DNA of 64,000 bases from Mesodorylaimus sp. YZB2_4 (taxonomy: Eukaryota > Nematoda > Enoplea > Dorylaimida > Dorylaimidae), in assembly GCA_030248295.1 (NCBI GenBank), contig JASANH010000626.1:1364001-1428000 (forward strand), written 5' to 3'. This document shows, piece after piece, positions 7,177 to 51,027 of this stretch (positions are counted from its first letter, which is position 1; each line of letters begins with the position of its first letter). The translations under genes and the position numbers were made by a program. The notes beneath the pieces were generated by a model that saw nothing but the letters and a program-made list of their open reading frames with translations, searched no databases and was not told the DNA's origin.

Positions 7177-9258
7177 TCAACCGGAAATAGTTCCGTTCGA
7201 ATAAAATTGTATCGAGGTCGTGCTTTGAACTAGCAAGGTGAGGTACGTGATAATAAGAGAAGCAACCTGCAACAAAAAATTATTCAGTAAAAGTAACCCC
7301 CAACGTGGTAGACCGCATTTCGTCTGGGTCTGCATTATTGGAGGGGAAGGACCCATGATGCTCATGCACCGTTCCAAAGCAGCCAACCAAGTCCCCCCGA
7401 CATGGTACGCCTGAAACGTCACGCAGCTGAGGCTTCATGCAGAGGCTCGATGGCTAACTGGGTCCTTCACAAAACTTACAGTCAATGCTAACGATTTTGT
7501 GACCACGAAATAACCAGCTGCGCTCATTCCAACTTGGCACTCGGCTTGTCGCAGCAGCCACATGGCCAGATTAGAAGTCTGAAAAACAAGGGGTGGCAGA
7601 CTAATGGATCAATTCGTTATGCACTGCTTTCGTCCATCCTACAGTATGTCTCTTTTTAAATACACTTTTGGGCCGAAGCCTGTTTTGCCTATAGCCGGCC
7701 AGCAGTCAAACCTTGTAAGCAAGGCTGAGCGGGGACCCACAGCAGCGCCCCTCTGCGTGTCTCCCCTAGGAGCACCTCCACGCGAGGGCATCCTGGACTG
7801 GACACCGGCTTCCTCGGACGATGCGGGCGGGCTTCAAACCCTGAGGTGTTCGGCAGCTGAGGCTGTCTACTCGTTTGGCTTCCATCTCTCCACCGCAAGG
7901 CCAGCGAGGGTTTATGATTAGCAAGCCGATCTCCATCACCGGGGATAGAACCCGGGGAGAGTCCAGCCACTCGCTCCCAAGCAATATGGGGAGACGAATG
8001 CCGAACTGCTGCATCGCCGCGGCCGCCGTACAGTATGTCTCTGCGTTTGCCCCATAGGTGACACTACCTGCACATCTGACCAAATTGTGTTATCTTCGTC
8101 CTTCAAACCGATTGTAATGCGGACTACCTCGGCGGTACGAGCAGCCTAAAACATGCAGCTCAAAATAAAAATGAAGCGAAAAAAGAGGACATTTTACCTC
8201 CTCGTAAAGAGTAGCTGGGACAAAAGTTAAGCCAGACAACTGTAGAAAACACATTGCCAGTATAAAAGCCAAGAACCAGCAGCGAGCCGAGTCGAGGTTC
8301 CAGCACAGATTATAGAGGAGAAGAATGACAGTTGGAATATTGGCGGCGAACATGGCGAATATGTAAGTTCCAAAGACTTCATTGCTCTTTTGTAAAGCTT
8401 TCGACAAGAGAACGTGCGTTCTCAACAAACATAGTAGCTCTTCCCTGGTGACCACAGTGACCGATTGAATTTCGTTATTCAGGTACTTGAACTCAGAAAA
8501 CATGAACTTGCAACAAGTCGTAAAGACTGCATTGGCCATAAGCCAACACCCGCCACCATATGCCAGGCCTCAAATAGAATCTATTGTAATCCAAGAAACA
8601 CTTCCCCATCCACACAGCTCTAAGCTCTGGTCCTACTGCATACTATCCTCGCACACAATCCTTCCCCGCAAATCTGGAAGATCAGATAAGACTTACCAAA
8701 AATAAGAATATTCTGAAGTGCAGGATGTCCGATCGTCATGTTGGCTCGTTCTTCTTTCATTAAGACTATCCCAACCATTCCTACTGTGGCAGATAATATC
8801 ATGCAGGTGGATACGATGGCTAAACACACTTTATGCACGAAAAGACTAGCCTGGATCCCTCGCTCCTCGTTGGCCTTTCGTATCATTGTCATAATTCCCT
8901 TTATGCTCCCCGACGACATCCACTTCATTAGATGGAATGCGGCTACCAGCTGCTGAAACATCCAGGCCGATACCCCCAAAAGGTTGGAGCCCTTGGCCAA
9001 ATCTTGACGCAGGTAATAGTACGATCGTGCTACGATGACCAGGGAAACGAGAATCACCCTGATCAGCATGCACAGCACTACACGATGTAATAAACGGCAA
9101 CACCGAGTAGCTTGAAGACGACGAGGTAAATAAATACCCCACAGAAAAAGGAGTACTTTGAAAGGTCGTAGTAGATTGTTTGAGGGATATGAGTTAGGCT
9201 CCTCACGGTGCATGGTGGTAGATGACGTAGCTGCTTCAGGAATGGCCAAGTAGACCAC
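7177..9258 (-). CDS. Gustatory receptor-like 7TM protein
   Basis: Five exons: 9258-8697, 8568-8198, 8145-8068, 7578-7480 and 7266-7177. Phases agree at every junction and give up to 399 residues, typical for the insect-type chemoreceptor superfamily (7tm_7). These are inverted-topology ligand-gated channels of sensory cells. Seen: an N-terminal LLRPFKVLLFLWGIYLPR block like the conserved Gr start, seven hydrophobic segments, REELLCLLRTHVLLSKAL before a late TM, the final-loop GMSAAGYFVVTKSL, and the last-helix signature TYLTLLVQ, matching Gr TYhhhhhQF. The true start could be the internal ATG at 9213. Intron 3 (489 nt) contains a full tRNA-derived SINE in the same orientation. Family call is firm; ligand unknown. 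Confidence 0.8.
7640..8042 (-). mobile_element. tRNA-derived SINE, full copy with target duplication
   Basis: The element body is 7654-8028 on the minus strand, inside intron 3 of the gustatory receptor-like gene. It is bounded by a perfect 14-bp direct repeat, TACAGTATGTCTCT, at 7640-7653 and 8029-8042, as expected of a target-site duplication. Read on the minus strand it starts with the tRNA-like head (GCGGCCGCGG, an A-box-like GATGCAGCAGTTCGG and a B-box-like GGGTTCTATCCCCGG). It ends with GGCAAAACAGGCTTCGGCCC and an A-rich tail. Confidence 0.88.
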
Positions 9259-31200: not shown

Positions 31201-33256
31201 CAACCTGCTGAGCGTTATCGAACGTGCCCAATGGCAACTGTTCCAATCGCCGGGCATCCTGACGTCATTTCAAACAATATTCGAATATTTCCTTGATTTG
31301 CTGCGTGTCGCGCTTGAAAAGAAAGTTTGCGTGCTCAGTTCACCGACTGAAGGCAGTGTCAGCATGTCGGAACCCAGTGAAGAAGATTGTTCGGCTCGAA
31401 CTGAAGAGGTGGAAGATGTCTTGGTGAAAGTAAGTCATCCGTGCTTTATCTTGGTGTGCTATATTGTTCTTTTCCCACAAACAGCTTTACAGTACTGTAT
31501 CATACTACTGTACGTGGGCAGCAATTAACCAAAGTACCTTAAATACTCAAATAATATCCCAGGAAAATTGTTTCAAGCGGGTTGGAAATTGAAATTTTAT
31601 TTCAAATTTCTTGCATCGAAGTTCTACTAAGGAAATGGCGATTTTCTCTGAATTGTTGCGGACACTCTTACAGCGCGACACTCTTACTCAACTAGCATAG
31701 TTTCATGCATTCTTGTCATTTGAAACATCATGGCAGGATGCCCATGGGGGGGGGTGAGGGTCACCATTCATACCGTATTGGCTCAGGGCATAGGCGTTCC
31801 ATACTACCCCGACGAAACTCTTGAGGGATAACGTTAAGTGAGTTATTAGCTAAATGAGTCCTTGGAAGGAAACTGCTCGAGGAGAAAACTAAATGAGTAC
31901 GCCGCCTGGTACGATGGTATGCTGCCGTCTTGGCTCCGTTGGCCAACCTGGGCGCGCACAAGTACAAGGTCGAGCAGGGACAAGAGGGCTTGCCTTCCAT
32001 CGTACCCAGGCGGTGCTGATTGCCCCAACCATACCTTGCTTGACACCGAACGCTGGGTTATAATTTACAGTAATACAGATTGGTACTTTTAGCTAGCCCG
32101 CGTGGTAGCTAACTTATCAGTACATCCCGGCATTGGTTCGATATTGTGCCAGAATGAGCAACTCCTTGGTCACTTGTGCACGGTGCTTGGTAAGATGGCT
32201 TTGTACCTCGTGTCAGGCAATGAGCACAATGTTTTTTTCAGAGTTGGCTGTGGAACACGGCGAAGCGGTTTCGGACGAGCTGACGATCAATGCCTTGGTG
32301 GCCTTGCACAATCTTTCATACTACTCCACGGACGAGGGTATAAATGCGCACATTCGGGATAGACTTGGCGACGGTACGCAATTCTGTATTGTGTTTGTTA
32401 GACCCTGCAAATCAATTTTTAGTTTCAGCTGTCTTCGCCATCATTTCTTCAAGCTCTAAAATGCACTCAGTGTCAGAAGCATGTTCCCTACTGGCAAATC
32501 TAACACGAGACACCGAGTTCTCGGAATGGATGATTCAAAAAGCAAGTATGCACTTTCAACTATGTTTTGATTATTTCTTCGAAAATTCATTCATCTTGTA
32601 GAACATAAGCACTTGATTTCATTCTTGGCTGTTGGCTCAAACATGCAGCTGACTAGGTCCGCAGCTGGTACGCTGATCAATCTAACCAGGTGCACTCAAT
32701 ATAAAGAAATATTGTTGGATAGTGACCTGCTGAACAAGTATGAACAAGCTTCCAGCGCATCTATCGATACGCTGCAGCTATTTTTTTATATCAGAACCTT
32801 TGAATTGCTAAAAGGATCAGTTTCTAATTACAACTGGTATTTGGCCGCACTGGCCACTCAGATCATTTGCAATTTGGTTCGAGAATCGGCGGACGATCGC
32901 CTAAATGGCAATCATGCCCTAAGACTCATCGATCGCACGCTGCTTCGTGATGTTGCCGATTTTCTGATCGAGCATACTGGTAGGAAGTAGGTGCGTCATG
33001 CGCAGTGTGATATGCAGAGGTCTTTCTAGATGACTCGACCATAATCAGTTCGAACGAGCTGAGGGACAACGAGTTGGTATCTCAACTACGTCATATATGG
33101 GAATACGAATTCTGCACTGCTTCGACTGAACTTTTGGAAACTTTGGATTCGGCGGTAGGCCAGAGATTACGTCCAGGTCAATCACTGCTTAGAACGTTTT
33201 TCATTGTAGCTTTCGTAAAAGCGATCCCAATTTCCTGCAGTGGTGCTACCTTTTAG
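28230..33256 (+). CDS. ARMC2: Armadillo repeat-containing protein 2
   Basis: Sixteen exons: 28230-28480, 28566-28626, 28691-28829, 28891-29046, 29631-29753, 29808-29974, 30215-30317, 30375-30556, 30619-30809, 31010-31112, 31169-31429, 32093-32189, 32242-32373, 32429-32545, 32602-32979 and 33030-33256. All phases agree; the product is 895 residues, close to the roughly 870 of vertebrate ARMC2. ARMC2 is needed for assembly of the sperm-flagellum axoneme. Diagnostic blocks: RTSAEIVKEARMSV near the N-terminus, MNVSGHNLAKVCKAVYSLS, DIIVRLLFILGNLLS, EDVLVKLARVVANLSVHPGI, LTINALVALHNLSYYS and TRSAAGTLINLTRCTQYKE. Together they form an alpha-helical armadillo array after a disordered Ser-rich region. 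The final exon retains LRHIWEYEF, matching the vertebrate end. Intron 1 contains a CGAT microsatellite; intron 11 contains a gene fragment (see separate entry). Confidence 0.9.
28492..28514. repeat. CGAT microsatellite in ARMC2 intron 1
   Basis: Uninterrupted tetranucleotide run of five to six ATCG/GATC units starting 11 bases after the exon-1 donor site. Self-complementary, so it could fold near the splice site. Confidence 0.85.
31901..32013 (+). pseudogene. Fragment of the small membrane protein gene between inverted repeats
   Basis: Inside ARMC2 intron 11. Bases 31920-31994 match the middle of the gene at 40950-41147 (from CTGCCGTCTTGGCTCCG to GAGGGCTTGCC) with about two substitutions, so the copy is recent or conserved. 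It carries neither the start codon nor the 3' half and cannot encode the protein. The fragment is bracketed by a 16-17 base inverted repeat: GCCGCCTGGTACGATGG at 31901-31917 and the reverse complement of CCATCGTACCCAGGCGG at 31997-32013, differing by one inserted G. The match to the coding strand and the flanking palindrome suggest capture by a foldback-type insertion or a repair event. Confidence 0.8.
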
Positions 33257-33707
33257 GTACACCTTACGGAAGCGAGGCGCCAGTGCTTTGTTTGTGGGGA
33301 TGCTCAAGTCTGGTGACAGTTAATGCTAAACAGTTAATGATAAAATCATTGATCGAAGGCTTGTTTTTGAGTCACAACTGACTGTAAATCTGTTTTCATC
33401 GCGCTGCTGGGAGCCCATGATCAAATATGGACGGGCTAGACATTGTACGTAACTTCTCTCGTGTTCTAGCAAAGACTCTATGAACCTACAGGCACTACTC
33501 CATATTCGCAACATTTCCTTATTTTACCCACTTCAAAGCCAAACAAAGTGCAAAAATTTATCCGATTACATCAACTATTCATCCTGAAACAGCCTAGCTA
33601 TCATGACACAATGCGAAACCTATGCGTGCAGAAACTAGATACCTGAGATTATATAACCGTTTTAATCACGCATTGTCCTCATTTTGTTCTTCTTTCATGG
33701 GATCCCA
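33257..33707. other. Short intergenic, nothing recognised
   Basis: 450 bases between the convergent 3' ends of ARMC2 and the small membrane protein copy 2, so both 3' UTRs should lie here. No structure seen. Confidence 0.45.
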
Positions 33708-33917
33708 TCACCCCGCAGCTGCAGGAGCACCACTAGACCCACCAACGTTTTTACGGATCGGAGCGAAATTTGTACCAGCGGAAGCATCAATTTTCTCAAA
33801 CAGCCGCTGAGCAAACGGTAGACCGGGGTGGCCGTTTTCTACTTGATGCTTGTGCACACCAAGATAGATCAACGGAATCAAGATGAAGACAGTGAACAAT
33901 GCGAAACCAGCGCCCAT
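33708..33917 (-). CDS. Small single-pass membrane protein, family copy 2
   Basis: One exon, 69 residues, starting at the ATG at 33917, the position homologous to the other copies (MGAG). The N-terminal membrane segment has more bulky residues (FALFTVFILIPLIYLG) than the Val/Ala-rich segments of the other copies. The conserved core is present: YLGVHKHQVENG, GLPFAQRLFEKIDASAGT, then FAP and a Gly/Ala/Pro tail. It differs from copies 3 and 4 at many positions and its bases are less GC-rich, so it is an older paralogue. It lies 1.3 kb from copy 3, on the same strand. Function unknown. Confidence 0.8.
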   Translation of the reverse strand: MGAGFALFTVFILIPLIYLGVHKHQVENGHPGLPFAQRLFEKIDASAGTNFAPIRKNVGGSSGAPAAAG

Positions 33918-34737
33918 TATTGGCCGTATGTACATACAGTATGTCCAAAATTCAATGCAAGCAGGGAACAACAGGACGTCGGACAAATCCACGCTGGAGA
34001 CAAGTAGGCACGAAAAACAGCGGAGAAGGAAGAATTCAAGCTCTTTACGCTGCCAAATAACGAGGGGTACTGATTCAAGCCTGGCTGCAGCAGATACTGC
34101 TGTCCGTGCAATTCATTTCAGTATGCCAGCACGTCTTGAGAAAAGTGTAATGGCACAACAAGTAGTTACAGCAAGCAAAGGTTCTGTCGGGCCCTAAGCA
34201 TTCGCCGAAAAGAGGGGAAAAGAAATCAGTAAAACACAGCAATAATGATCTAAGAAACGATGTTAGGCACCAGAACTTCCGAACGTGCATGGCGGTTTGG
34301 AAAAGTTTTTTCAGGGTCGATACACTTCATATATGTGAGCCCTCATTGAAAGTTTTTCGAAACAGATATTGCAGTTGCTTTTTTTCTCCAGGTTTCCACA
34401 AGCAAACAATAGTGATACAGCTTTTGGACACATTGTTGTCTAAAAAGCGTCGATGCTGCTTTGCCCTCAACTTGGCAAAGGTGGTTCCGCAAGGGAACTT
34501 TCATGCAAAAGACCACCCCACTACTTCAGAGCACCACAGCAGGTCCAGCGGCCTTGAATTTGCAGTACATCGGCGTTCGATACCCGTATTGCAAGGTAGC
34601 TAGCGGCCGCGCTCATCCCGAGTTATTCTCAGCGAGGAGGTCCTAACGGCCCAGCGCGCAAGGCCCCACGGTACCTGGTCACTACTGATTCAAGCCGTCT
34701 GGAACCGTCTGGTAACGCCGTCTGGTCTGGTACAGAC
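33918..34737. other. Intergenic with a short CGTCTGG repeat
   Basis: No gene seen. At about 34695-34735 the motif CCGTCTGG recurs several times, directly before a SINE fragment. Confidence 0.45.
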
Positions 34738-34905
34738 GAGGTGCTCCGAGCGGAGAGACGGAAGCCAAACGAGCACTGTCGAACACAGCTCAACTGCTGA
34801 GCCGTCGAACCCGGCAGGTCGATATTCGAACACCGGCAGGTTTTACAGCCCATCGTCCGAGGAAGCCGATGCACGGCCCAGCCCAGGATGCCCTCGTGAG
34901 ACGCA
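34738..34905 (+). mobile_element. SINE fragment (central part)
   Basis: Begins GAGGTGCTCCGAGCGGAGAG and matches the middle of the full SINE copies (GACGGAAGCCAAACGAG, CATCGTCCGAGGAAGCCGATG, CAGGATGCCCTCG). The tRNA-like head and the 3' tail are missing. It stops within about 10 bases of the outer end of the left inverted-duplication arm, so it may mark that breakpoint. Confidence 0.78.
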
Positions 34906-34911
34906 CGTTGA

Positions 34912-35940
34912 AGGTCTGTTGAACTAATATGAGTTTCTGCCGCAGAGCGAGACGATGTATTATCCATTGTGCGATATGCGAATTCCCTTTCTGTTGTGTT
35001 TTGTTTTCCTCACCTATATTCTATCATGCCAACGCAAGCCAAGCTTTACCAAATGGTCACGCACGATCACGAACACGATCATCACGCATACAACCCACGC
35101 ACACGGAAAAGAAGATCACAAGAGATCACGAGATCATCGCATCACTTCGATTCCTTCTGCCTTCATCGATCGACCGATTCGACTTGCTTGCATGTTCATT
35201 GGGCGGCGGGGACGGCAGCGGGAGCGCCGGCCTTCGGAGCCAACGATGTGCCGGCGGTGGCGTCGATCTTTTCGAAGATTTCTTGCGCCATCGGCAAGCC
35301 CTCTTGTCCGTGCTCGACCTTGTACTTGTGCGCGCCCAGGTAGGCCAACGGAGCCAAGACGGCAGCGGCGACCACGACGACACCAGCGCCCATTTCGACG
35401 ACGACGGACTGGCTTCAACGAAAGACGACGAGGTGACGGGACGTCCGACGAGGTGCACTCGACCGCACAGCTCACTGCCGCAGAGACAAATGGGGAGTCG
35501 GAGCACCTTGTTAAACGTCTCCGACTTTGCATCTACCCTTTACAATCTGCATCTACTTTACTCTGCACAGTAAGCTACCCTTATTGCTGCTGGTGCGCAG
35601 ATGCGCAGAAAATGTTTTGCACAGGTCCATGGATTCAAATTAGTAGGTATTGATTCTCGCTCCTGCAGAAGGTTTGGGCCAGGTCAGAGTGAAGTTTAGT
35701 GTGTATGCCTCAACTTTGCGGCCCAAATCAACTTGACACTTGAAGGGATTGACGACAGCTCTGAAGTAAGACTCCAATTTTCTTTTCAATGCATTCTGAC
35801 TCTGGGTTCCTACAGAACAGATTTTCAAGTGATAGAGACCAAACGCACCTTTCCTTATTGCGTACGCATTTTTTGGGGTCAACTAGCGATCTTATTGCGA
35901 TCGACTTGTGTAAGAAGTGATGACGCAAAAACTATGGTAC
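34912..35940 (-). repeat. Left arm of a large inverted duplication
   Basis: About 1.03 kb that matches 40390-41433 in inverted orientation, with a 4.45-kb spacer. The match covers the small membrane protein gene, both UTRs and several hundred bases beyond on each side. Near the gene it is almost identical; toward the inner end (for example GGCCAACTAGCGATC against GGTCAACTAGCGATC) it falls to roughly 75-80% by eye with indels. The spacer contains the whole P4HA gene. Confidence 0.88.
35196..35393 (-). CDS. Small single-pass membrane protein, family copy 3
   Basis: One exon, 65 residues. It differs from copy 4 (40950-41147) at two bases, one synonymous and one giving Val5 instead of Ile5. N-terminal membrane segment about residues 4-20 (Val/Ala-rich), core YLGAHKYKVEHG and GLPMAQEIFEKIDATAGT, and an Ala/Pro tail. 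Nearly all third positions are G or C, in contrast to the AT-rich surroundings, suggesting strong expression or gene conversion. It sits in the left arm of the inverted duplication, transcribed away from the P4HA gene in the spacer. The family is not recognised; a small bitopic membrane protein is the safest description. Confidence 0.85.
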   Translation of the reverse strand: MGAGVVVVAAAVLAPLAYLGAHKYKVEHGQEGLPMAQEIFEKIDATAGTSLAPKAGAPAAVPAAQ

Positions 35941-37123
35941 TCTTATGTAGTCATCCACTCACTGAACCATGATGTGAAAATCGCATTTTGCTGACCGTGG
36001 AGCTGATGATAAGCTGTAGCATTAAGCTTGTGTCTATATAAGCATGTAAGCATGCTCTAGCAATGTATACTCGTTGCGCAATAGCGCTCACGCTCATGCT
36101 CACGTTTTACCACATCGCCGAACTCACTCGAGGGTCAAGGGACTCTCGACCACCATAAAACCATCGCGCGCCTTGCGCCCCAGGCCATGCGTGACTAGTA
36201 CTGTTGCAATAGGCATGGACTAGTCTCTCCGGTCTATCAGTGCACTGGTTCAAGGAGCCGCCCTGCACGAGACTGGCGATGAGAGCGAGATCGAGGTCGA
36301 GTGTCCGGTTTGGTTTGCAGGCATCGGTAGAAGACTGATCTTTAGTTCTTGGTCTGAACTGCTCTGTGATCCCTTCGGGTTCAGGTCCGTTGATGTCTGA
36401 AGGGTTTTGAGATCATCCGCTCCCCGCGGTATCTTGTCCAAAGTATAACCTGTTTTCTTTGAGAATGTACACGCCCTCCACGTTCCTGCATAGGCCGCGT
36501 GTACATTCCCAAAGAAAACAGATAGTAGGGGTATTCAACCCTATTACTCTCAAGGCATTCGGAGTGGAGGCTGATTCTAAACGGTCCCTTACATCCAGAA
36601 AGCTACCGTGTGGCTTTGTTTGCAAGGTAAACAGGCTCTGCTCAAGTGGTTTAAGTAAAAAGGCAAAAGATGCGATGAAAAATGAGCAGATAAATCTGCT
36701 TTTAGTGAACCTGTCCAGTCGCCGACCACTGCGAAAGATCTGCTACTTTGCCTAATAGTATTATGACTAACTTTACTCCATGTACAGTTAGCTCAGTATG
36801 CACTGTATGCACACCAACCAACAAGTCACCTCCCTGTCCTAGGGAGAGTTTTTAGAAGCATAGAAGAGAGAAAGTTTATTAAGCAAATGGAACACTGTCA
36901 CAAGATTTCTGCACCAGTTACACCCTTTACATGGCATATACTCTAACAGCTGCTGTTATCGCCAACTCCATTAAAACATTTTTCGAAATTCCAACTAGAA
37001 TATATTTGGTGAATACTAACGTTGAAGTTCGAAATACATTTAAAAAAGTCCCTGACAGCATTTTTCCATTTGTCTTAAAGTGGGTCAGAACAACACCGTG
37101 GCGTAGGAAGACCCGGGCGCAGG
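35941..37123. other. Inner spacer upstream of P4HA
   Basis: Non-coding by inspection apart from one 72-bp hairpin element at 36450-36521. Must contain the P4HA promoter. No other structure seen. Confidence 0.45.
36450..36521. mobile_element. 72-bp perfect-hairpin element, copy 1
   Basis: Starts CTGTTTTCTTTGAGAATGTA and ends with its inverted complement: 24 of 25 arm positions pair, around a 22-base loop. A second copy of the same length lies at 61854-61925 with about four substitutions. Both copies are preceded by ATAAC and followed by ATAGTA. Compact size, terminal inverted repeats and dispersal suggest a miniature foldback element. Confidence 0.82.
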
Positions 37124-39626
37124 ATGCCGACCGTATGGTTACTTTCTTCTCTCTTTGGGCTTGTTAGTTCACTTTTCTCTACTGATCCCAAATATGCTGC
37201 CGAAATGGAAGCATCTATGGCTATGATTGTAAAAGAGTATGTTCAGCGCGAAACGAGAAAGCTGGAACTTCTAAGCAGGTATATCCTAGTACATGCTTTT
37301 CATGAGAGTCTAATATTCTGTCGTGACCAAGGAAAAGAGATTTAGGCATGCTAAAGCATTGGAACAGAGGTCGAAATCACACGATGCCTCCGAAGCCAAT
37401 CCTTTAGCGATGTATTTGGCGGTGGAGAGTTTGATCAGCGAGTGGGGAAGCCTGTGTGAGAAAATGAATTCTACAGCTTTATCCAGTGAGGCCTCGCAAA
37501 CCTGAGGAACTTACCTTTGTATTTTAAACCTTGATTTGTTAGCCTTGAACCACACCGTTCCGAAGGTAGATGATCTGTCTGATGTGGCCAATGCCATCTT
37601 CCGCGTACAAGACGTGTACCTGCTGCGCTCGACTGATATCGCATCTGGCTCGGTACCTGGTCTAGCCATATCTGGAAGTCTAAGCGGTAGGTTTAATCCA
37701 GTAGTGAAATCCATTTGTGGAAGACACGAGTGAACTTTCAGCCAAAACTTGCTTCGATATTGGTCGGATAGCTTTTGACAGCGACGATCATTTCCATGCA
37801 ATAAAATGGTTTCAAGCGGCCCTTTCGCGCTCCGCTGAAGAAATTCCTCCCAGTGTAGAGGAGTATGAAATTTACCCTTTCTTGGCCTCATCATTGAATC
37901 AAGCTAGCGCAGCTAACAGACAATGGGCGGGGCGAATTGCCAGACAATTCGAAGAAATAGCGGATAAAGAGAAGGTTGAGAAATTTATCAAGAAGTATCC
38001 TGATTTTGAAACCATTCTGGATGGGGTAGCGAATGAGGCAATGATTGAATTCGAGGAGCTACCACCGATTACGAATGATCGCTTGGACGAGCATCAGACT
38101 TTGGAGCAACCAAATTACGAATTCCTGTGCAGACAAGGATATCGAAATGAGGTACCTACACAAAGGTGTACTTGTGACCCTCGTGCCTGGTAGGCGAGAG
38201 TAATCGATCTCCCCTGGCTGGGAAACGTCAACTTCTCGAGTTGATGTTTCAGCCGCAGGTGTAGTCGCAAGACTTGCCTTGCTTCAGTCGGGGTTTTTGT
38301 CCCGTCGACTTCGGTAAACCTCCCTCCCCCCACTCCCTCCTACGCCTGCCAGGCTTGGTTAAATATTGCACTATCTCATCAGCAGATCAGAAAGTTTTCT
38401 AGATTCCACGTTCCAATTCGTCCTACACATGTTATTACGATCGCACGTCTCCTTATCTTCGACTGGCTCCTGCAAAAGTTGAGATTTTGCATCACAAGCC
38501 CCAACTACTCAAGTTTCACCAGATTATTAGCGATTCGGAAATAGAAGTCTTGCGGCAATTCATAGGCGATCAGAAGAAAGTAAGGCTATACCCTTGCCTT
38601 ATCTTTCCGGTATAACCCTCTTTGTAAAACAGGTGCTCAGAGCTGGTATAAGCCGTGTAAATGGCACTCCGACGCTGAACACAACTGTTAGAGATAGTTT
38701 CGTGTAAGTTCTGAGCATGTTTCTGATTTGGCTGATATGTCCTTTCGCTTATTATCAGCCTTGGACACCTCAATTTCTGACAGGAAGGAGACAAGCGATG
38801 TCAACGGCGAGCATTGTGTACATATATCGTTGTCAGACTGTAGACAACGACAACGAACTATACATGGCTTTTTGGCCACGCTAGTAATAAACACTGTAAT
38901 GTTGTAGGGTATGGGCACGCGAGAGGGACCATCCAGTCGTGGCTAACTTACAAAAACGTGTTGCCGATGTGACGAAACTTAATCTCAAATATTCTGAAGC
39001 TCTGCAAGTATGTGACATGTTATCGCCATGAAATACACCTACCAATCACGTGCTTACATTCAGCTCAGTATGTACGGCGTAGGTGGTCATTACAGACCTC
39101 ACTACGATTTCAGTCCGGTAAGTAAGCCTCATACTGACAGATACACTAAGCAGATCACAATATCTTATAATCTTTCAGAAATTCAGCAGCACGGATGCCC
39201 CTGACTTCCCGAACTGGCGTATAGCGACATTCATGTTCTATGTGCGTCTCATTTTCCATATTCCCCTCATACCATTGCTAGATATGGTTTCTCGCAGCTA
39301 CTGGAACCTACAGTCGGTGGTGGAACTGCTTTCCCGTTCGCCGATTTGCTAGTGAAGCCGACCAAAGTATGCGCCGCACAAGGTCATACAGTACTGCAGT
39401 CATGAGAAACCATTTTCAGAACGATGCTTTATTTTGGTATAATCTAAGACCACGTGGCGATGGTGATCACTACGCGCTACACGCCGGGTGCCCTGTCATA
39501 AGCGGTACGAAATTAGTTGCTAATCAGTGGGTCACGAACAAGGGCCAGGAGTTCTTAAAGAAGTGTGAACTGAACGAGCACTACGTGACTCCTTGGGAAG
39601 CGGAAGAAATGGTCACTGATACGTGA
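37124..39626 (+). CDS. Prolyl 4-hydroxylase subunit alpha
   Basis: Eleven exons: 37124-37278, 37346-37485, 37543-37686, 37742-38151, 38403-38579, 38633-38703, 38908-39007, 39064-39117, 39179-39241, 39298-39366 and 39420-39626. All phases agree; 529 residues, normal for the family. The enzyme hydroxylates proline in procollagen in the ER using Fe(II), 2-oxoglutarate, O2 and ascorbate. Seen: signal peptide (MPTVWLLSSLFGLVSSLFS), N-terminal dimerisation region, TPR-like peptide-binding domain (SAKTCFDIGRIAFDSDDHFH), and the catalytic double-stranded beta-helix. Iron ligands are in GGHYRPHYDF (His, Asp) and the His of YALHAGCPV; the 2-oxoglutarate Lys is in SGTKLVANQW. No canonical KDEL-type ending: the C-terminus is MVTDT. 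The gene is intact and lies in the spacer of the inverted duplication. Intron 4 carries a MITE. Confidence 0.93.
38175..38358 (+). mobile_element. TIR MITE, copy 1, in P4HA intron 4
   Basis: Left end GTGCCTGGTAGGCG and right end CGCCTGCCAGGC form terminal inverted repeats. Internal landmarks CTGGCTGGGAAACGTCAAC, GTTGATGTTTCAGCC, CAAGACTTGCC and TTCAGTCGGGGTTTTTGTCCC recur in the copies at 56565-56756 and 60417-60604. About 185 bp and non-coding. It makes up most of this 251-nt intron. Confidence 0.8.
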
Positions 39627-40949
39627 AAGAATGTGAGTAATTCATTTTTAGCGAATCGTTAAAAAGAAAAGTTGAATGTGGAGAATGTCTTTGTTCGGGT
39701 TATCTTTTCCAGTGTGACAGTAAGGATTCGATAAATGAATACTTTGCAAACATATTCGGCGGAATATCGACATCATCAACACGGCAAGGGTTGCGGCCGC
39801 GGTGGTGCAGCGGTTCAGCATTTGTCCCTCCGAGTTGCTTGGAAGCGAGTGTCTGACTCGTCCCGGGTTCAATATCTGGTGACGGAGGTCTGTTTGCGAA
39901 CCATAAACCCTCGCTGGCTTTGCACGCCAGGTCGTGGGTGACTCATTTGGCTTTCCCGAGGTATTCTGCGTGGAGAGACGGACGCCACACGAATAGACAG
40001 TGTCGACTGTCGAGCACCGACAGGGTTGAAAGCCCTCGGTTTGAGGTGCTCCTAGTGGAGATATACTAACGATCAGAGGAATGCTGCTGTGTGTGCTGGT
40101 CCTCGCAGAGACTTGCTTAGAAGGTCTGGCTGCTGGTCGGCTATTCGTAGGCAAAACAGGGCTTCAGCCCTCAAAAATTGCAGAGGTCCCAACAGAGCGA
40201 ACTGACTGTGGGACAATATCAGAACTAGGTACATACAACTGCACGCGTCAGTGGAGACTTTCCTGTCTTTTCTCGCGTCAGTGGATACCTGTCTTTTCGA
40301 AAACAGGCCACCAAGAGTGCTGTCAATCAGCAGCGATGTGAGATGGTTACAGAAGTGGCTATTTGATCTTTGCAGTTCAACAGAGAGTGTAGAACTGTAC
40401 ATAATTTTTTCGTCATCATTTCTTAGACAAGTCGATCGGACTAGGATCGCTAGTTGGCCAAATAAAGGTATAAGGCATGAATGAAGGCGCACTTGGCCTT
40501 TATCAGTCGAAAATCTGCTCGATACGAGCCCATAGTCGGATTGCATTGAAAAGAAAATTGACGTTTTACTGCAGAGCTCTCGCTAATCCCCGCCAGAACC
40601 CTCGATTTGAAGCCAACAGCAATTTTGGCTGCAGCAAGTTGTGGCATACACACTTAAAACTTCACTGTGACCTGGCCAAAGCCTTCTGCAGGAGCGAGAA
40701 TTAGTACCTACCGATTTGAATCCATGGACCTGTGCTAAACATTTTTTTCGTATCTGCGCACCAGCAACAATCTTACTTAGCTTACTGTGCAGAGTAAAGT
40801 AGATGCAGATTGTAAAGGGTAGATGCAAAGTCGGAGACGTTTAACAAGGTGCTCCGACTCCCCATTTGTCTCTGCGGCAGTGAGCTGTGCGGTCGAGTGC
40901 ACCCCGTCACGTCGTCGTCTTTCGTTGAAGCCACTCCGTCGTCGTCGGA
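39627..40949. other. Inner spacer downstream of P4HA
   Basis: Holds the P4HA 3' UTR, a SINE (39793-40176) and, from about 40390, the inner part of the right inverted arm. Between about 40215 and 40320 a unit of roughly 30 bases (GCGTCAGTGGA ... CTGTCTTTT) is repeated twice. Confidence 0.5.
39793..40176 (+). mobile_element. tRNA-derived SINE, full copy
   Basis: Starts GCGGCCGCGGTGGTGCAGCG (A-box-like) with a B-box-like GGGTTCAATATCTGG about 75 bases further on, a spacing suited to a tRNA with a long variable arm. The body matches the copies at 7654-8028 and 47977-48379 and ends GGCAAAACAGGGCTTCAGCCC. Lies about 170 bases after the P4HA stop codon. Confidence 0.85.
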
Positions 40950-41433
40950 ATGGGCGCTGGTATCGTCGTGGTCGCCGCTGCCGTCTTGGCTCCGTTGGCC
41001 TACCTGGGCGCGCACAAGTACAAGGTCGAGCACGGACAAGAGGGCTTGCCGATGGCCCAAGAAATCTTCGAAAAGATCGACGCCACCGCCGGCACATCGT
41101 TGGCTCCGAAGGCCGGCGCTCCCGCTGCCGTCCCCGCCGCCCAATGAACATGCAAGCAAGCAGAATCGGTCGATCGATGAAGGCAGAAGGAATCGAAGTG
41201 ATGCGATGATCTCGTGATCTCTTGTGATCTTCTTTTCCCTGTGTGTTGGTTGTGAATGCGGTGACGATCGTGTTCGTGATCGTGCGTGACCACTTGGTAA
41301 AGCTTGGCTTGCGTGGGCATGATTGAATATAGGTGAGGGAAACAGCACATCAGAAAGAGACAATTAACGAACAATGAACAATGAGTGACACCGTCTCGCT
41401 TTGTGGCAGAAACTCATCTCAGTTTAACAGACT
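40390..41433 (+). repeat. Right arm of the inverted duplication
   Basis: Inverted partner of 34912-35940. The outer boundary falls where both arms read ...AACTCATNTNAGTT(C/T)AACAGAC and then diverge. Carries the small membrane protein copy 4 with its UTRs. The arms together with the 4.45-kb spacer make a palindrome of about 6.5 kb. Confidence 0.88.
40950..41147 (+). CDS. Small single-pass membrane protein, family copy 4
   Basis: One exon, 65 residues; the same product as copy 3 except Ile5. Starts at the ATG in GTCGGAATGGG, just after a GTC-rich leader also present in the left arm. Membrane segment about residues 4-20, then GAHKYKVEHGQEGLPMAQEI and EKIDATAGT, ending in an Ala/Pro tail (AAVPAAQ). 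Third positions are almost entirely G/C. The 3' UTR (tandem GATCTCGTGATCTCTTGTGATC-like stretches) is shared with copy 3, and loosely with copy 1. Transcribed away from P4HA, mirror-image to copy 3. This copy is also the closest source of the fragment at 31.9 kb. Confidence 0.85.
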   Translation: MGAGIVVVAAAVLAPLAYLGAHKYKVEHGQEGLPMAQEIFEKIDATAGTSLAPKAGAPAAVPAAQ

Positions 41434-42369
41434 TATGGCAAGATCAATCTATCTACGCATTGACTATTCCATGACAGCGGTTGGAATTGTGAGCAGTGAG
41501 GTAGCCTGGCGGTTTGGGCGTCTGCCTGTCGCTGTCGCGTCGGAACTAGCCAGCAGTCCTGCCACCTCATGCATAGTTTTTTTCCATCCACACGCAAGAC
41601 CGCATACCAAATCAGCCTCATCCTTGAGTGAGCTCTCACGATCAGCCTGTCCCTGACACAGTAGAGGTAGACCATTTCTCTGAAACAATGAGTTGGTACA
41701 AAATAACGCTAAGAATACCGACGGAGGTCATAAGATTGAGCAGAGACAGTGAAACAGATAAGATATCCACGCCTTTTACTCACGCCGTGGGCTTTTTCGT
41801 GCGTGCATACATGGTTTGAACATGCTTACATTGAATATACTATAACCACGGGTGCATAATAAGACGAACGAATCTAATGCGAAAGCTCATCGTCAGCTCC
41901 ACGGTCATGAGAGACAGTGGAGAGTGACAGATTATGGCAATGTGTTTCCTTTTGTGTGCTTTTGTTCGTCTTTTCGTAATTGAAATAAAAAGCCTGGAAA
42001 AGTGACCAGCACACATCATAACTTCCGAGTATACAAAACGCTGCACCATCGTGATTATCGTTAGCTTTTTTACCTGTGCTATCGAATAGAGTAAGCCAAA
42101 ATGCAGTATGAGTCCCGGATAGTGAGCTTATTGGAAAGGAGATACGTTGCCGACTCCTACGCATTAGGTGGGTGAAATGAAAGCAACAGAAACTAGTTGC
42201 GTTATTTTGTACCAACTTCACGGGTGGATGCTCGTGACTGTTCAATGTATCGCCCACTCTAAAACAAGAAATCATGGAATGTGCACAGACAAGTCTACTT
42301 AGGCAGCTGATCCGCCGAGAAAGGAGGTGTGTGTTTCTGACGTGAGCTTATTTTATTGCAAGACCAATA
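41434..42369. other. Intergenic, nothing recognised
   Basis: About 940 bases from the outer edge of the right arm to the PAN gene start. No repeat or coding pattern; the promoter of the PAN/TSP1 gene should lie at its right end. Confidence 0.45.
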
Positions 42370-44418
42370 ATGGCAACTATTCAAGTTCAGTTTATTTTGG
42401 GACTTGGTCTGTTGGCGAGTGTATTTGGTAATTGCCAGTTTGGTAAATATAAAATTTGATACGTATCATTTGAAGCAGCAGAATATCTGACCTCACTTTT
42501 AGACCCCAAATGTTTTCGATACAGTGTTGGATGCACTTTGATGAATGCATTTCCGTATGATCGCAAGACACCCATGTCCTGTACGGAGTGCTTGAACAGG
42601 TGCTTAGAACAACAGAATGGACCCACCCAGTATTGCTGTCGGGCGGCGGTGTACGACTATCGTTATCAATCATGCGACCTGTTTGCAGTAAATGCTATGT
42701 CCAAACCTTATCGACTGACCAAGATGTATGGGAGATGCTACTTTCAGTAAGTCAATTCGATTATCTTCAAATTTATGAGATGGGTGGGCTTCTTAAAAAA
42801 GCACAACAAATGATTTTGTTTCCCCTTGGTGTGGCCAGCAGTAGATAAGATTTGCAAATATACGCGCCCTCCATTATCGCCAAAACAAAGTTCCAACTTT
42901 ACCCACGCACAAACACAGAACTGTTACACGTTTTCTAGGCCAACCGGATACTGCAGTGCGAGTACGCCCGCACCTCCCCCAACACAAGGACCGAGAGGTA
43001 TCAACGCTAATTAGAGTCTCCTAATAACATGGAACAAGGTACATTTTAAGAGAGTTGTCCAAGCGGGCAAACAGCAAAAATGGTCGCTATAAGGGACTAT
43101 CAATATCCAGGATTAGCAGGGACGACAGTGTCTGATACTACACCGGAGTCCTGTGCACAAGTGTGCTTGAAGAACCAGGTGAGGAAGGTCTGAAGTAGTA
43201 AGTCGCAATCGAGTCTGGAAGAGAGAAAAGCTAGAAAAATGCGGTATGAGCTAGGCATCTGCACATTGCACAGTGTGGTGCCCTTCAACCCTATGATGAA
43301 GCTATCTTGAGATAGAACTTGACCATCTCTTTAAGCTGCCAGGTGGGACGACAATCGATTGCAAATCCGCCCAGTTTGGACCCGGAAATCAGTGTGTTGT
43401 GTCAACCAGTCCTGGAGCTAACGTGGAAGGCACTATCCAGCCCGCCCCAGGTGCAACCTACTATCAAAAATTGTGCTTTCCTAGTACGTTTTTGCTAGTC
43501 GTTTCTTGATGACCTCGATCCGAAGCTTGGACATTTAGCTTCCTCCGTTATCAACTGCCCCGACATTTTCGAAGAAGACCCACAAAAAATCTTGGTCGGC
43601 CAGAATAGGCAGACGGTCAGCTCAAGCTCTTTGCAAGACTGCATGCAAAAATGCTTCGATTCTCAAAAGGAGTACGGGTTTGTGTGCAAGTCTGGAATGT
43701 ACTTCTATCAGGTATCGATATCAGCCTTTCCGCATCTTCTGGAGACAGTATGCATGTGGCTAACTTTTAGGAAACAGAACTCAGCTGCATCTTGAACATA
43801 GAATCAAAGTCAACAAAACCGGATTTATTTACGGATGCTGCTGCCAGTGATAAAGTCACTTATTTTGAACCTGGTTGCAATGGAGGGCAGAAATGTAAGC
43901 ACAATTGCGGGGATATAGTTATCAGTAGCTGGTCATCGAAATTGACTAATAGACCGCCAATACATAGTCTGAACCCTGACAGCGAGAACCCCACTGGAGT
44001 AGCTATCGATTTGATTCCATTTTTAGTGGATATCACTCAAAAATTAATGAAAGACGCGGACGTCGTCAGAGACCTGCCCATTGCTGGCGAATGGACTCTG
44101 TGGTCACAATGCACCGCATCTGGTAAACAATATCGGTTCTTGCCATGCTCAGAGCTCGATCCGAGAAAATGCGATAAAGAGGAACGACCATGCTCTGACT
44201 CGAATCCAATCCCCACCGAAGACGAGGCTTGGTTCAAAGAAATGTCACACAGCAGTAAAGGAATGATGGCAGACGGCAATGCAACAAGTAGCTTCACGCC
44301 GTGTAAAGCAACATTTCGCATGGGAATAAAAAACTGCACGTTCGGAATGCAAACTGTGGATGGCAAAGTGGTCTATTGCTACGAACCTGTGGATTTCGAG
44401 TGCATGGGCCACCCCTAA
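42370..44418 (+). CDS. Secreted PAN/apple protein with a TSP1 module
   Basis: Eight exons: 42370-42442, 42503-42746, 42939-42997, 43051-43178, 43336-43483, 43539-43711, 43771-43894 and 44027-44418; all phases agree, 446 residues. Signal peptide about residues 1-20 (ILGLGLLASVFG). Three cysteine-rich PAN/apple-like units follow: around CTECLNRCLEQQNGPTQYCC, around ESCAQVCLKNQ and IDCKSAQFGPGNQC, and around LQDCMQKCFDSQ. PAN domains bind proteins or carbohydrates outside the cell. A thrombospondin type 1-like module follows, GEWTLWSQCTASGKQYRFLPC ending RPC, then a Cys-bearing tail. Exon boundaries and phases match the paralogue at 47303-50128, which lacks the TSP1 module. The last intron (43895-44026) is 132 nt and open in frame, so it could also be retained. 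Confidence 0.8.
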
Positions 44419-47302: not shown

Positions 47303-50128
47303 ATGACGCTGCCCTTCTTCGTATTTCTGTCCTTTTTACTTCAAGCTATGTTTTTGCAAAGGGCACTCTCCCAATACATGGGAGACATGATGGGTGGTCA
47401 GTATGGAGGAGCTTCACCCGCCCTCTATGCATTATCAGCGGGTAATGGCGCTCACCAAGGGCCTGTTTCCATTGGGCACCCAATGGCGCCATTGGATGCC
47501 AACCACGTTCCACCTGGGTATTTCGTCCCCTTGAAACACGACTACAATGCCCCTGTAGTCACTGGTTTCAACAATACAGCGATGTGCAATTTCGGTAAGG
47601 GTTTGATGAAGTTACGAGGCGACCTGAGTATGTGAGATCTCTGCCGTATGTCTCAAGCCCTAGGCAAAGTGAGCACCTCAGGTTGTGCGCCGCGGTATGC
47701 GTACCCACGGTGGAATGCTAAGTCTATGGGGATCTTATCCCGTATTATATATGGCATTTAGTAACCAGACAGGCATGATACCGTCTGATAGGCGTCTAAT
47801 CTGATCTATCGGGTGTGCCATAGAGAATGGTCCTCGAATGTTTTGTCTTATCCCTTTTATGCAAGTTATCGCGGTAAATCTTATACCATTGCGTTCAGCA
47901 TCCAATTCTGAGTCAGCTTGACCTGTTCTACTTGTTTCGCTTTTCATTTCTTCATATAAGCTACTGTACAACAACAGCGGCCGCGATGGTGCAGGCGCGG
48001 TTCGGCATTTGTCCATCCGTGTTGCTTGGGAGCTAGTGGCTGGACTCGTGTTGGGTTCAATCCCCGGTGACGGGGGTCGGTTCGCGAACCATAAATGCTC
48101 GCTAACCTTGCACGCCAGGCCCACCCGATACCCTTGAGGTGCTCCGAGTGGAGAGACGGAAGCCAAACGAGGAGACAGTCTCGACTGTGGAACGCCGACA
48201 CGGTTCAAAGCCCCACGCCATCGTCTGAGGGAGTCGATGTCCAGTCCAGGATGCCATCGCGTGGAGGTGGTCCTAGGGGAGACACGTAGAGGGACGCTGC
48301 TGTGTGCTGGTCCCCGCACAGCCTTGCTTATAAGGATAGGCAAAACGGACTTCGGCCCAAAAAAATTTAAAAAAAAAACTGCACAGTGTGATAGACACAT
48401 AAATAGGACTGTTTGACACAAAATTGAATGCTCTGTCTGCGTGTGTTAGGGTCAAGCTCGCGACGCGATGGCCTCAGAAGAAAGCGAGCCTTCTCTGAGA
48501 GGGTCACTCTTTTTTGGCACACCCGATAGTCTTATGATCGTTTTGTGAGAGGTGCTGTGTTGGAAATTGCCCAGGTGCTTTTACTTTTTGATTCTTGTTA
48601 CGTCTCTCTAGATCTTCTTGTTTTCAATTCTACAAATAAAATATAATCAAAGTTAATCACTTTTAGATCCAAAATGCTTTGAATACAGTGAAGGCTGCAC
48701 ATTCGTCAACTGCCGGCCCTTCAACCGCAGTTCGCCAGTTACGTGCGAAGAGTGCTTGAATCTTTGTCTGAGCAAGCAGACTACAGCTGGCCCCTACTGC
48801 TGCAAGTCTGTCGTCTACGATGTTCAATACCGAATTTGTGACTTATTCTCTCAGGACATTGGTGGTAATATGGCAAACCTGGCCAAAAGACCAGGACATA
48901 TCTACTTTCAGTGAGCTTATAGAATTTTATTACCGAGCTTGTTAACAAAATGGGATTTTTAGACCAACTGGAGTGTGCCAAGCTATTACGCCCGCCCCAT
49001 CTGCAGGTAGGTTTTGAACTGTTCGCACGCGAAAGTCAAACTAACCTGATGTTCTTGGTGCTTTGTTAACATACGATCTCATATGCTGAAATATGAAACT
49101 CTACCTTAAGCAATCTGTCCCAGCGGTCAAAGCGAGAAGATGGTCGCTGTCAGAGATTACCGCTTGACTGGATTCACTGGTCAGTCAGTACCCAACATTG
49201 CTGACGGAAATGCGTGCGCTCGTTCGTGTCTCGACAACAAACTGTCTGACGGGTCGGCGTTCAGTTGCAAATCTGCCCAGTTTGCCAATGGCCAATGCAC
49301 CATATCAAGTACTCAGGCGAGGGCCGAAGGGAACCTTAAAAAGGAGCCTGGTTCGGCTTACTTCCAGAAACTTTGCTTTCCGAGTGAGTCCTTCCTTGAG
49401 TCTTGATTTGGGATAGCAGTCTGACGACTGGGGGTTTTTAGCGGCATCTGTGGCTGGTTGCAGCGACATTTTCGAAGAAGCTCCCCAACATATCTTGGTT
49501 GGTCAGAACAGACAAGCCGCTGATGCAACTTCGGTGACGGACTGTATTCAATCATGTTTAGATGCTCAGGCTAAATATGGATTTGCTTGTGCATCAGCGA
49601 TCTATTTTGTTAATGTAAATATTGCAACTCTCATCATGCCAATTGTATAATGACGCAATTTTTAGGCTTCATCACAAAACTGCATTTTAAATAGCGAATC
49701 GAAATTCACTAAACCAGATGTATACACTGCAGTGGAAGATGACAAGGTGTTCTACTTGGAAACCGGATGTGGCGGTGGGGCAGCTGCTGGTGGCATTCTG
49801 CGATGTAAGGAGTTGGGTTATGTTCTATCCAACATTATCGTGCCTGCAAAAAGATATTTTAGTCAGGGATCAGTCGCTTCAATCAAAAAATGGACCTGCC
49901 AAAAGTTCTGAGCCATCACTCTGGTCACGGACTGCTGGAAGCTCTGTAGCAAATCCCGTTGCTCTCGCTCCCGCAACATCAGGAAGCACGTTGTGGGGAA
50001 GAATAAACGGTAAGGAAAGAGCACAATGGCGCGACAACGCTATAAAATTTTTCTTTCCAGGTTCTGGAAAGAAATCAGGCAACGACAATGGTATGGCTCA
50101 AAGAAATATTCCGCTAGCGTGGAACTAA
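47303..50128 (+). CDS. Secreted PAN/apple protein, paralogue without TSP1
   Basis: Eight exons: 47303-47594, 48667-48910, 48963-49006, 49111-49383, 49442-49614, 49666-49804, 49863-50009 and 50061-50128; all phases agree, 459 residues. Signal peptide about 1-23 (LPFFVFLSFLLQAMF), then a Gly/Met/Pro-rich stretch of about 75 residues not found in the paralogue at 42.4 kb. The PAN/apple part aligns throughout with that paralogue: PKCFEYSEGC, CEECLNLCLSKQ, SGQSEKMVAVRDYRL, FSCKSAQFANGQC and CSDIFEEAPQHILVGQNRQ. Exons 2 and 5 match the lengths of paralogue exons 2 and 6 exactly (244 and 173 nt). The 3' end has no TSP1 module but a Ser/Ala/Pro-rich tail. The long first intron (1072 nt) contains a SINE. 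The join from exon 1 to exon 2 rests on phase and the signal peptide only. Confidence 0.76.
47977..48379 (+). mobile_element. tRNA-derived SINE, full copy, in intron 1
   Basis: Starts GCGGCCGCGATGGTGCAGGC, has a B-box GGGTTCAATCCCCGG, and ends GGCAAAACGGACTTCGGCCC followed by an A-rich tail of about 20 bases. The tail is the best preserved of the copies, so this is probably the youngest insertion. Same orientation as the host gene. Confidence 0.86.
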
Positions 50129-51027
50129 GCGGAACGTAAATCGCCTTCTGAGAACATATGACCTTGTATTTCGGTCACAATGCTGCCTGTAGAAAGTTTC
50201 GTGTCCAAGTTTGCAAATGTCAAGTTGACATGGGCTACTTATAACTGCTGTATGCACTTTGAGGAGCGCGGAATTATCTGCGGATATCTGCTAGGTTGCT
50301 GCGATGCATTTTGCAGTACTTTTTGAAAGAACTCTGATCGTGAGTGAGAAATGAAATTGTCGTGCACAGGTCGAACTTCCGACTCTCAAGATGTATTGGC
50401 ATGCTTATTCCAATGGGTGCGGCCGCGGTAGTGCACTGTTTAAGCGTATTTACAATCGAAACCTAAAGATTCTAAAGTTTAAGCCTAAAGAAGCTAGCAA
50501 GCGGCTGGACTCGTCCCGGGTTCAACCCCGGTGCCGGAGCTCGGTTTGCGAACAGTGAACCCCTTCGCTGGCCTGTCACGCCAAGCCGTGGACGACTCAC
50601 CCGGTACCGCCGAGGTGCTCCGAGTGCAGAGACGGAAGCCAAACGAGGCAGAACGGGTCGGAAGTCCAGTGGGGTAACTGGGGCGGCGCGGACCTCAACC
50701 CTTGAACCTTTAAAAAAACTTGGTGCTGGGCGCACTTGTTTTCTCTCAATCTTTCATTATGGTAAGACGTGGACGGTGGATTTATTCCTGCCCCTCTTCT
50801 ATGCCATACATGCGTAAGATATACAAGTACGTATCATCTACAAGGTAGTGTACACTAGTCTTCGCATCGGCATGGCAGGTAGGTATGTAAAAAGTGTACA
50901 GAAGCAGCGGACAGTGATACACTCACAGCAGCAGCCGAGTCCATTCTGCGCTCCGTCTCGCGGTTGCTGTCGCTCAGTGAAAATCGCTGCGTCGTTTTTG
51001 AATCTTTGCATCATCGGTTCGAGCGAA
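50129..51027. other. Intergenic with a truncated SINE
   Basis: Apart from the SINE remnant (50419-50668) nothing is recognised. The interval should contain the promoter and 5' UTR of the VWA gene; the frame is open upstream of its start. Confidence 0.45.
50419..50668 (+). mobile_element. SINE remnant, rearranged
   Basis: Head GCGGCCGCGGTAGTGCA, then about 55 unrelated AT-rich bases in place of the region between the A and B boxes. After that the SINE resumes (GGCTGGACTCGTCCCGGGTT, CGAGGTGCTCCGAGTGCAGA, GACGGAAGCCAAACGAG). The 3' half is missing. Confidence 0.75.

Follow-up and report, generated by a model that had tools for sequence, protein, structure and literature searches.

Inverted copies of an orphan microprotein gene on either side of a prolyl 4-hydroxylase gene in a nematode: probable duplication followed by gene conversion

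How does a gene for a collagen prolyl 4-hydroxylase alpha subunit (P4HA) come to lie between two inverted copies of one small membrane protein gene, and what keeps these copies alike? The question is raised by a 64-kb stretch of a nematode genome (C1:1364001-1428000, hereafter the window), which was analysed together with the complete assembly of 145 Mb in 1067 contigs. Self-BLAST of the window aligns arm A (34914-35940) in inverted orientation with arm B (41432-40397, that is 40397-41432, also seen in a further self-comparison) at 86.4% (86.35%) identity over 1055 columns, neither arm being assigned a strand. The score of this match is 1107 bits versus 41.7 bits for the top inverted match among 100 two-base-block shuffles of 33501-43000. 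No longer self-match is listed in the window at E up to 1e-5, the runner-up measuring 247 bp, and seven of the eight ungapped inverted pieces listed are parts of the match between the arms. With each gap counted as one event, 134 of 1021 columns are different between arm A and arm B. The inverted arms of about 1 kb that had been proposed in a sequence-only reading of the locus are hence present, but the "6.5-kb palindrome" of that reading is a generous word, since a spacer of 4.46 kb (35941-40396) separates the arms.

Each arm contains an open frame of 65 codons plus stop, located on the reverse strand in arm A (35196-35393) and on the forward strand in arm B (40950-41147). Both genes point outward and their proteins share 64 of 65 residues, which bears out the earlier description of a near-identical, outward-transcribed pair. 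The arm A protein features a single hydrophobic stretch close to its N-terminus, and an AlphaFold2 model based on four window sequences predicts helices at residues 3-27 and 35-47 with a mean pLDDT of 59.

The spacer harbors a P4HA-type gene of 11 exons on the forward strand (37124-39626) that is open from start to stop. Among 112 splice combinations that passed our landmark filter, the four best-scoring ones encode 525-537 aa. The 535-aa model comprises the domains P4Ha_N (PF08336, 53.2 bits, cut-off 25.3), TPR_P4H (PF23558, 43.9 bits, cut-off 27) and 2OG-FeII_Oxy_3 (PF13640, 48.9 bits, cut-off 27). The 2OG-Fe(II) core is characterized by an HxD motif, a distal His and a Lys, a pattern that is matched by HYDFSP and HAGCPVISGTK in the model. 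Furthermore, the last exons match PDB chain 7zsc_A, a P4H alpha-2, and pieces of the protein match P4H alpha-1 and alpha-2 chains in the PDB, with engineered TPR proteins ranking higher in one search. The gene thus looks complete, as had been assumed from its sequence. Comparison with its closest paralogue on contig C18 gives dN 0.19 and dS 0.72 over 525 codons, a rough estimate because the aligned pieces cross introns. When set against the collagen prolyl 4-hydroxylase alpha subunit, the encoded protein is an ordinary member with all three domains, one of 29 P4H-type loci in this genome (our count from 30 rows obtained with the last P4HA exons as query).

The arms are alike overall but not evenly along their length, as core and flanks differ sharply. 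The best segment, a core at 35105-35576 of arm A (without strand), spans the gene, its presumed UTRs, whose limits were inferred from the alignment of the copies, and about 80 bp more upstream. It displays 8 differences in 461 columns, whereas the flanks outside the core carry 118 in 539. Complementarity reaches 97% in an ungapped core piece of 351 bp and 99% in a second one of 131 bp, and likeness per 50 columns amounts to 0.94-1.00 in the core compared with 0.52-0.94 in the remainder of the arms. Expressed as differences per 50-column block, the outer end shows 11, 24, 3 and 9, the nine core blocks 0-3 each and the seven full inner blocks 4-17. A segment as good as the core was reached by 0 of 10000 shuffles; the test was our own rather than the GENECONV program, and it presumes an equal rate along the arm, which has to be counted against conversion. 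After removal of the coding part, 6 differences in 263 columns remain, again equalled by 0 of 10000 shuffles. The tract is therefore more alike than its flanks beyond chance with or without the coding sequence, a point in favor of conversion. Likewise, the noncoding part of 35086-35577 differs at 14 of 284 columns as opposed to the 118 of 539 in the flanks (Fisher p 1.6e-11).

Judged by within-genome patterns alone, the locus probably goes back to an old inverted duplication around an existing P4HA gene, with later re-homogenization of the core by ectopic conversion and P4HA as a passenger. In the first step, a segment of 1 kb or more with one family member would have been duplicated and inverted, leaving one copy on either side of P4HA. 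The two copies would then have diverged by approximately 20%, before ectopic gene conversion re-homogenized about 0.5 kb including the upstream part, the UTRs and the coding sequence. Purifying selection would in addition maintain the encoded protein, a putative single-pass membrane microprotein. We infer conversion as the cause of the identical core, as well as a duplication around P4HA instead of a later arrival of this gene.

This two-stage origin, which the sequence-only reading had put forward in general terms, gains support from further copies of the small gene. The arm A protein is identical in all 65 residues to those encoded at C1:1492133 and C1:1594778, 93 and 196 kb from the window pair, and arm B is one residue off. 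Over the first 54 codons, dS among these four close copies is 0.026-0.052 (rounded, 0.03-0.05, to be seen against the diverged flanks), while it reaches 0.50-0.55 to a copy on contig C45, which speaks for conversion. Among the 36 pairs formed by nine copies, dN is lower than dS in 35, and both are 0 in the remaining one (2048k/2061k, see below). Within the unit at 35092-35480, 25 gap-free columns are variable, 41 gap columns being left out of this count. As many as 21 of them are private to one copy, which also favors conversion; two are mixed, and two, both downstream of the stop codon, unite arm A and arm B against the others. A gap column upstream of the start codon (35423) likewise unites A with B. 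Further upstream, likeness is mainly found within the window pair and within the pair 1492k/1594k, save for short common motifs. This pattern would fit a homogenized 5' part and coding sequence in all four copies, plus arm-to-arm conversion that included the upstream stretch.

The alternative that survives best, even if it appears unlikely, is a single inverted duplication without any conversion, in which the core stayed alike through selection on coding, UTR and promoter sequence. Constraint on the promoter and UTRs of this region could alone be enough to make the core slower than the flanks, and indeed the core roughly coincides with the unit common to the close copies, the protein is strongly conserved and short upstream motifs recur. 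Synonymous sites were nevertheless free to diverge between older family members, with dS of about 0.5 to 2.0. In addition, the upstream stretch 35494-35577 shows 1 difference in 85 columns between the arms and is mostly unlike in other family copies, apart from the recurring short motifs; BLAST matches from arm A to other copies stop at 35492-35496. Since this stretch is largely unlike elsewhere, family-wide constraint does not easily explain its preservation in both arms. A motif containing GTAAAG at 35534-35548, upstream of the start codon, occupies the same column range in seven of nine aligned copies and is a possible candidate for a promoter element.

Two other pairs from the same contig bear on this choice in different ways. 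An inverted pair at C1:2048426-2048987 and 2061505-2062052, the genes of which face each other, shows 93% identity over 562 bp. There are 29 differences in 552 columns, only 3 of them in the best 325 columns (reached by 11 of 5000 shuffles). All 29 lie in the 342 columns outside the coding part, the 210 coding columns being identical, and once the latter are taken out, no segment stands out any longer (the best one is reached by 1233 of 5000 shuffles). As the signal vanishes in this way, the pair provides no independent sign of conversion; its likeness may reflect coding constraint, which counts against conversion and agrees with the selection-only account. The pair 1492k/1594k has 12 differences in 395 columns and a best segment of 5 in 362 (1 of 5000 shuffles). 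Here, a more alike segment persists without the coding part (3 differences in 169 columns, 17 of 5000 shuffles), which counts for conversion. In a further piece of 103 columns next to this alignment, 16 differences occur without structure (2502 of 5000 shuffles).

A functional unit that retains P4HA next to both small genes, for instance to allow their co-expression in cuticle formation, is very improbable. Adjacency is what suggests it, along with the setting in a nematode genome with 133 Col_cuticle_N matches. A search of this genome for the SL1 spliced leader gave no match, a result that does not speak against its presence. Nonetheless, just one of the 29 P4H-type loci, the P4HA gene of the window, lies near any of 39 loci of the small gene family, at 1.7 kb from a member. 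Another five lie on the same contig as a family locus at distances of 375 kb to 1.24 Mb, so that nowhere else are the two found close together on one contig, though the remaining 23 reside on contigs without a detected family locus and hence offer no distance to read. No family member accompanies the C18 paralogue in the surrounding 10 kb, where two matches with E of about 0.25 are at chance level. The link between the small genes and P4HA that had been considered for this locus is thus not supported, and because only this one P4H-type locus adjoins a family locus, P4HA looks like a bystander.

An assembly artefact, in which a haplotype or a chimeric read would have been inserted in reverse, had been named as a reason to abandon the arms. 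It is suggested by the fragmentation into 1067 contigs but is likewise highly improbable given the 134 differences in 1021 columns between the arms, seemingly too many for a repeated haplotype.

Inverted pairs with comparable features are known from the hsp70 and amylase genes of Drosophila. In nematodes, Zhao et al. 2007 (PMC1803023) describe, in the parts considered here, inverted C. elegans paralogue pairs with arms kept alike within species, namely F44E5.4/F44E5.5 and the hsp-16 locus. Common to these pairs and the present locus are oppositely oriented nematode paralogues on one chromosome with similar arms. However, the spacers of the two C. elegans cases measure 126 and 414 bp, while the one found here is 4.46 kb long and harbors P4HA. 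Unlike in the C. elegans pairs, the arms of the window pair have also decayed towards both their outer and their inner ends. A short gene-free spacer characterizes those C. elegans cases but is not a property of gene conversion itself. The relevant sections of a review (PMC3966223) list hsp16, hsp70 and col-12/col-13 as cases of conversion in Caenorhabditis, in direct or inverted orientation, which share near-identical open reading frames and diverged flanks with the arms; the present case concerns another gene family and four similar copies up to 196 kb apart. The same sections caution that high identity of a reading frame next to diverged flanks can stem from recent partial duplication, which could mimic the pattern and is to be counted against conversion. 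The locus extends the list of nematode inverted paralogues with maintained likeness, this time with a large gene-bearing spacer, and its decayed arm ends allow the homogenized tract to be located.

More unusual than the repeat or P4HA, and a better target for follow-up, is the orphan microprotein family itself, some members of which encode identical proteins at distances of up to 196 kb. When the genome was searched at the protein level with a threshold of E 10, at least 33 places emerged (weakest E 0.06). With a distant member as query, at least 38 rows were obtained at E up to 0.01, of which 31 were already known and 7 (6 loci) were new. By our count, the union of both searches amounts to at least 39 loci, a lower bound that includes some fragments or copies with a stop. 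The genes lack introns as read from their open frames alone. Searches of Pfam, NCBIfam and PDB with the small protein returned chance-level hits only, namely Whi5 at E 0.33 and YccF, which 3 of 20 members hit with E 0.077 at best. In an alignment of 20 of the 39 loci, picked by hand, residues L19, H22, K23, G29, G32, L33, D44 and P53 (arm A numbering) are invariant, within a family motif around YL..HK..VE.GQ.GLP..Q..F..ID. In contrast to these positions, the C-terminal tails are variable, being Ala/Pro, Gly, Pro-rich or Lys-rich. Tentatively, and with considerable doubt, one may conceive of a putatively nematode-restricted membrane microprotein family of at least 39 loci outside these databases that would spread as single-gene cassettes and evolve concertedly over about 200 kb through ectopic conversion, with inverted pairs as putative favored sites.

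The window itself holds five family loci, four open frames and one fragment, where two genes had been noted before. In addition to the genes of the arms, the protein search located an open frame at 2320-2532 on the forward strand and a diverged member at 33708-33917 on the reverse strand (54% over 67 aligned residues). The fragment, detected by self-BLAST, covers 74 bp at 31921-31994 (forward strand, 97% alike). Except for a few bases, it is directly flanked by the short, near-perfect inverted repeats GCCTGGTACGATGG and CCATCGTACCCAGGC, and it resembles a gene piece that might have been caught in a small transposon. Just outside the window, a truncated family copy at C1:1362599-1363701 is interrupted by an insert of 919 bp that includes a poly-A run. 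Near both ends of this insert, the same 22-base sequence recurs, CGG occurs on both sides, and the 5' break of the copy lies at most 2 bp from the end point of the fragment.

A transposon that carries the arms was also considered and rejected. With 34912-35912, from the arm A side only, as query and very common words skipped, matches beyond the two arms were confined to the gene unit (query 172-585). Among dispersed repeats, the spacer contains two short ones at 36444-36528, which is partly self-complementary, and 36205-36390 (query 36100-37123, 40 of 1460 first-look candidates scored). A further dispersed repeat of about 350 bp occurs at 7670-8029, 39793-40170, 47977-48335 and 50496-50652, as well as at 2043-2070 kb of C1; the copy at 39793-40170 approaches the inner boundary of arm B to within some 0.2 kb.
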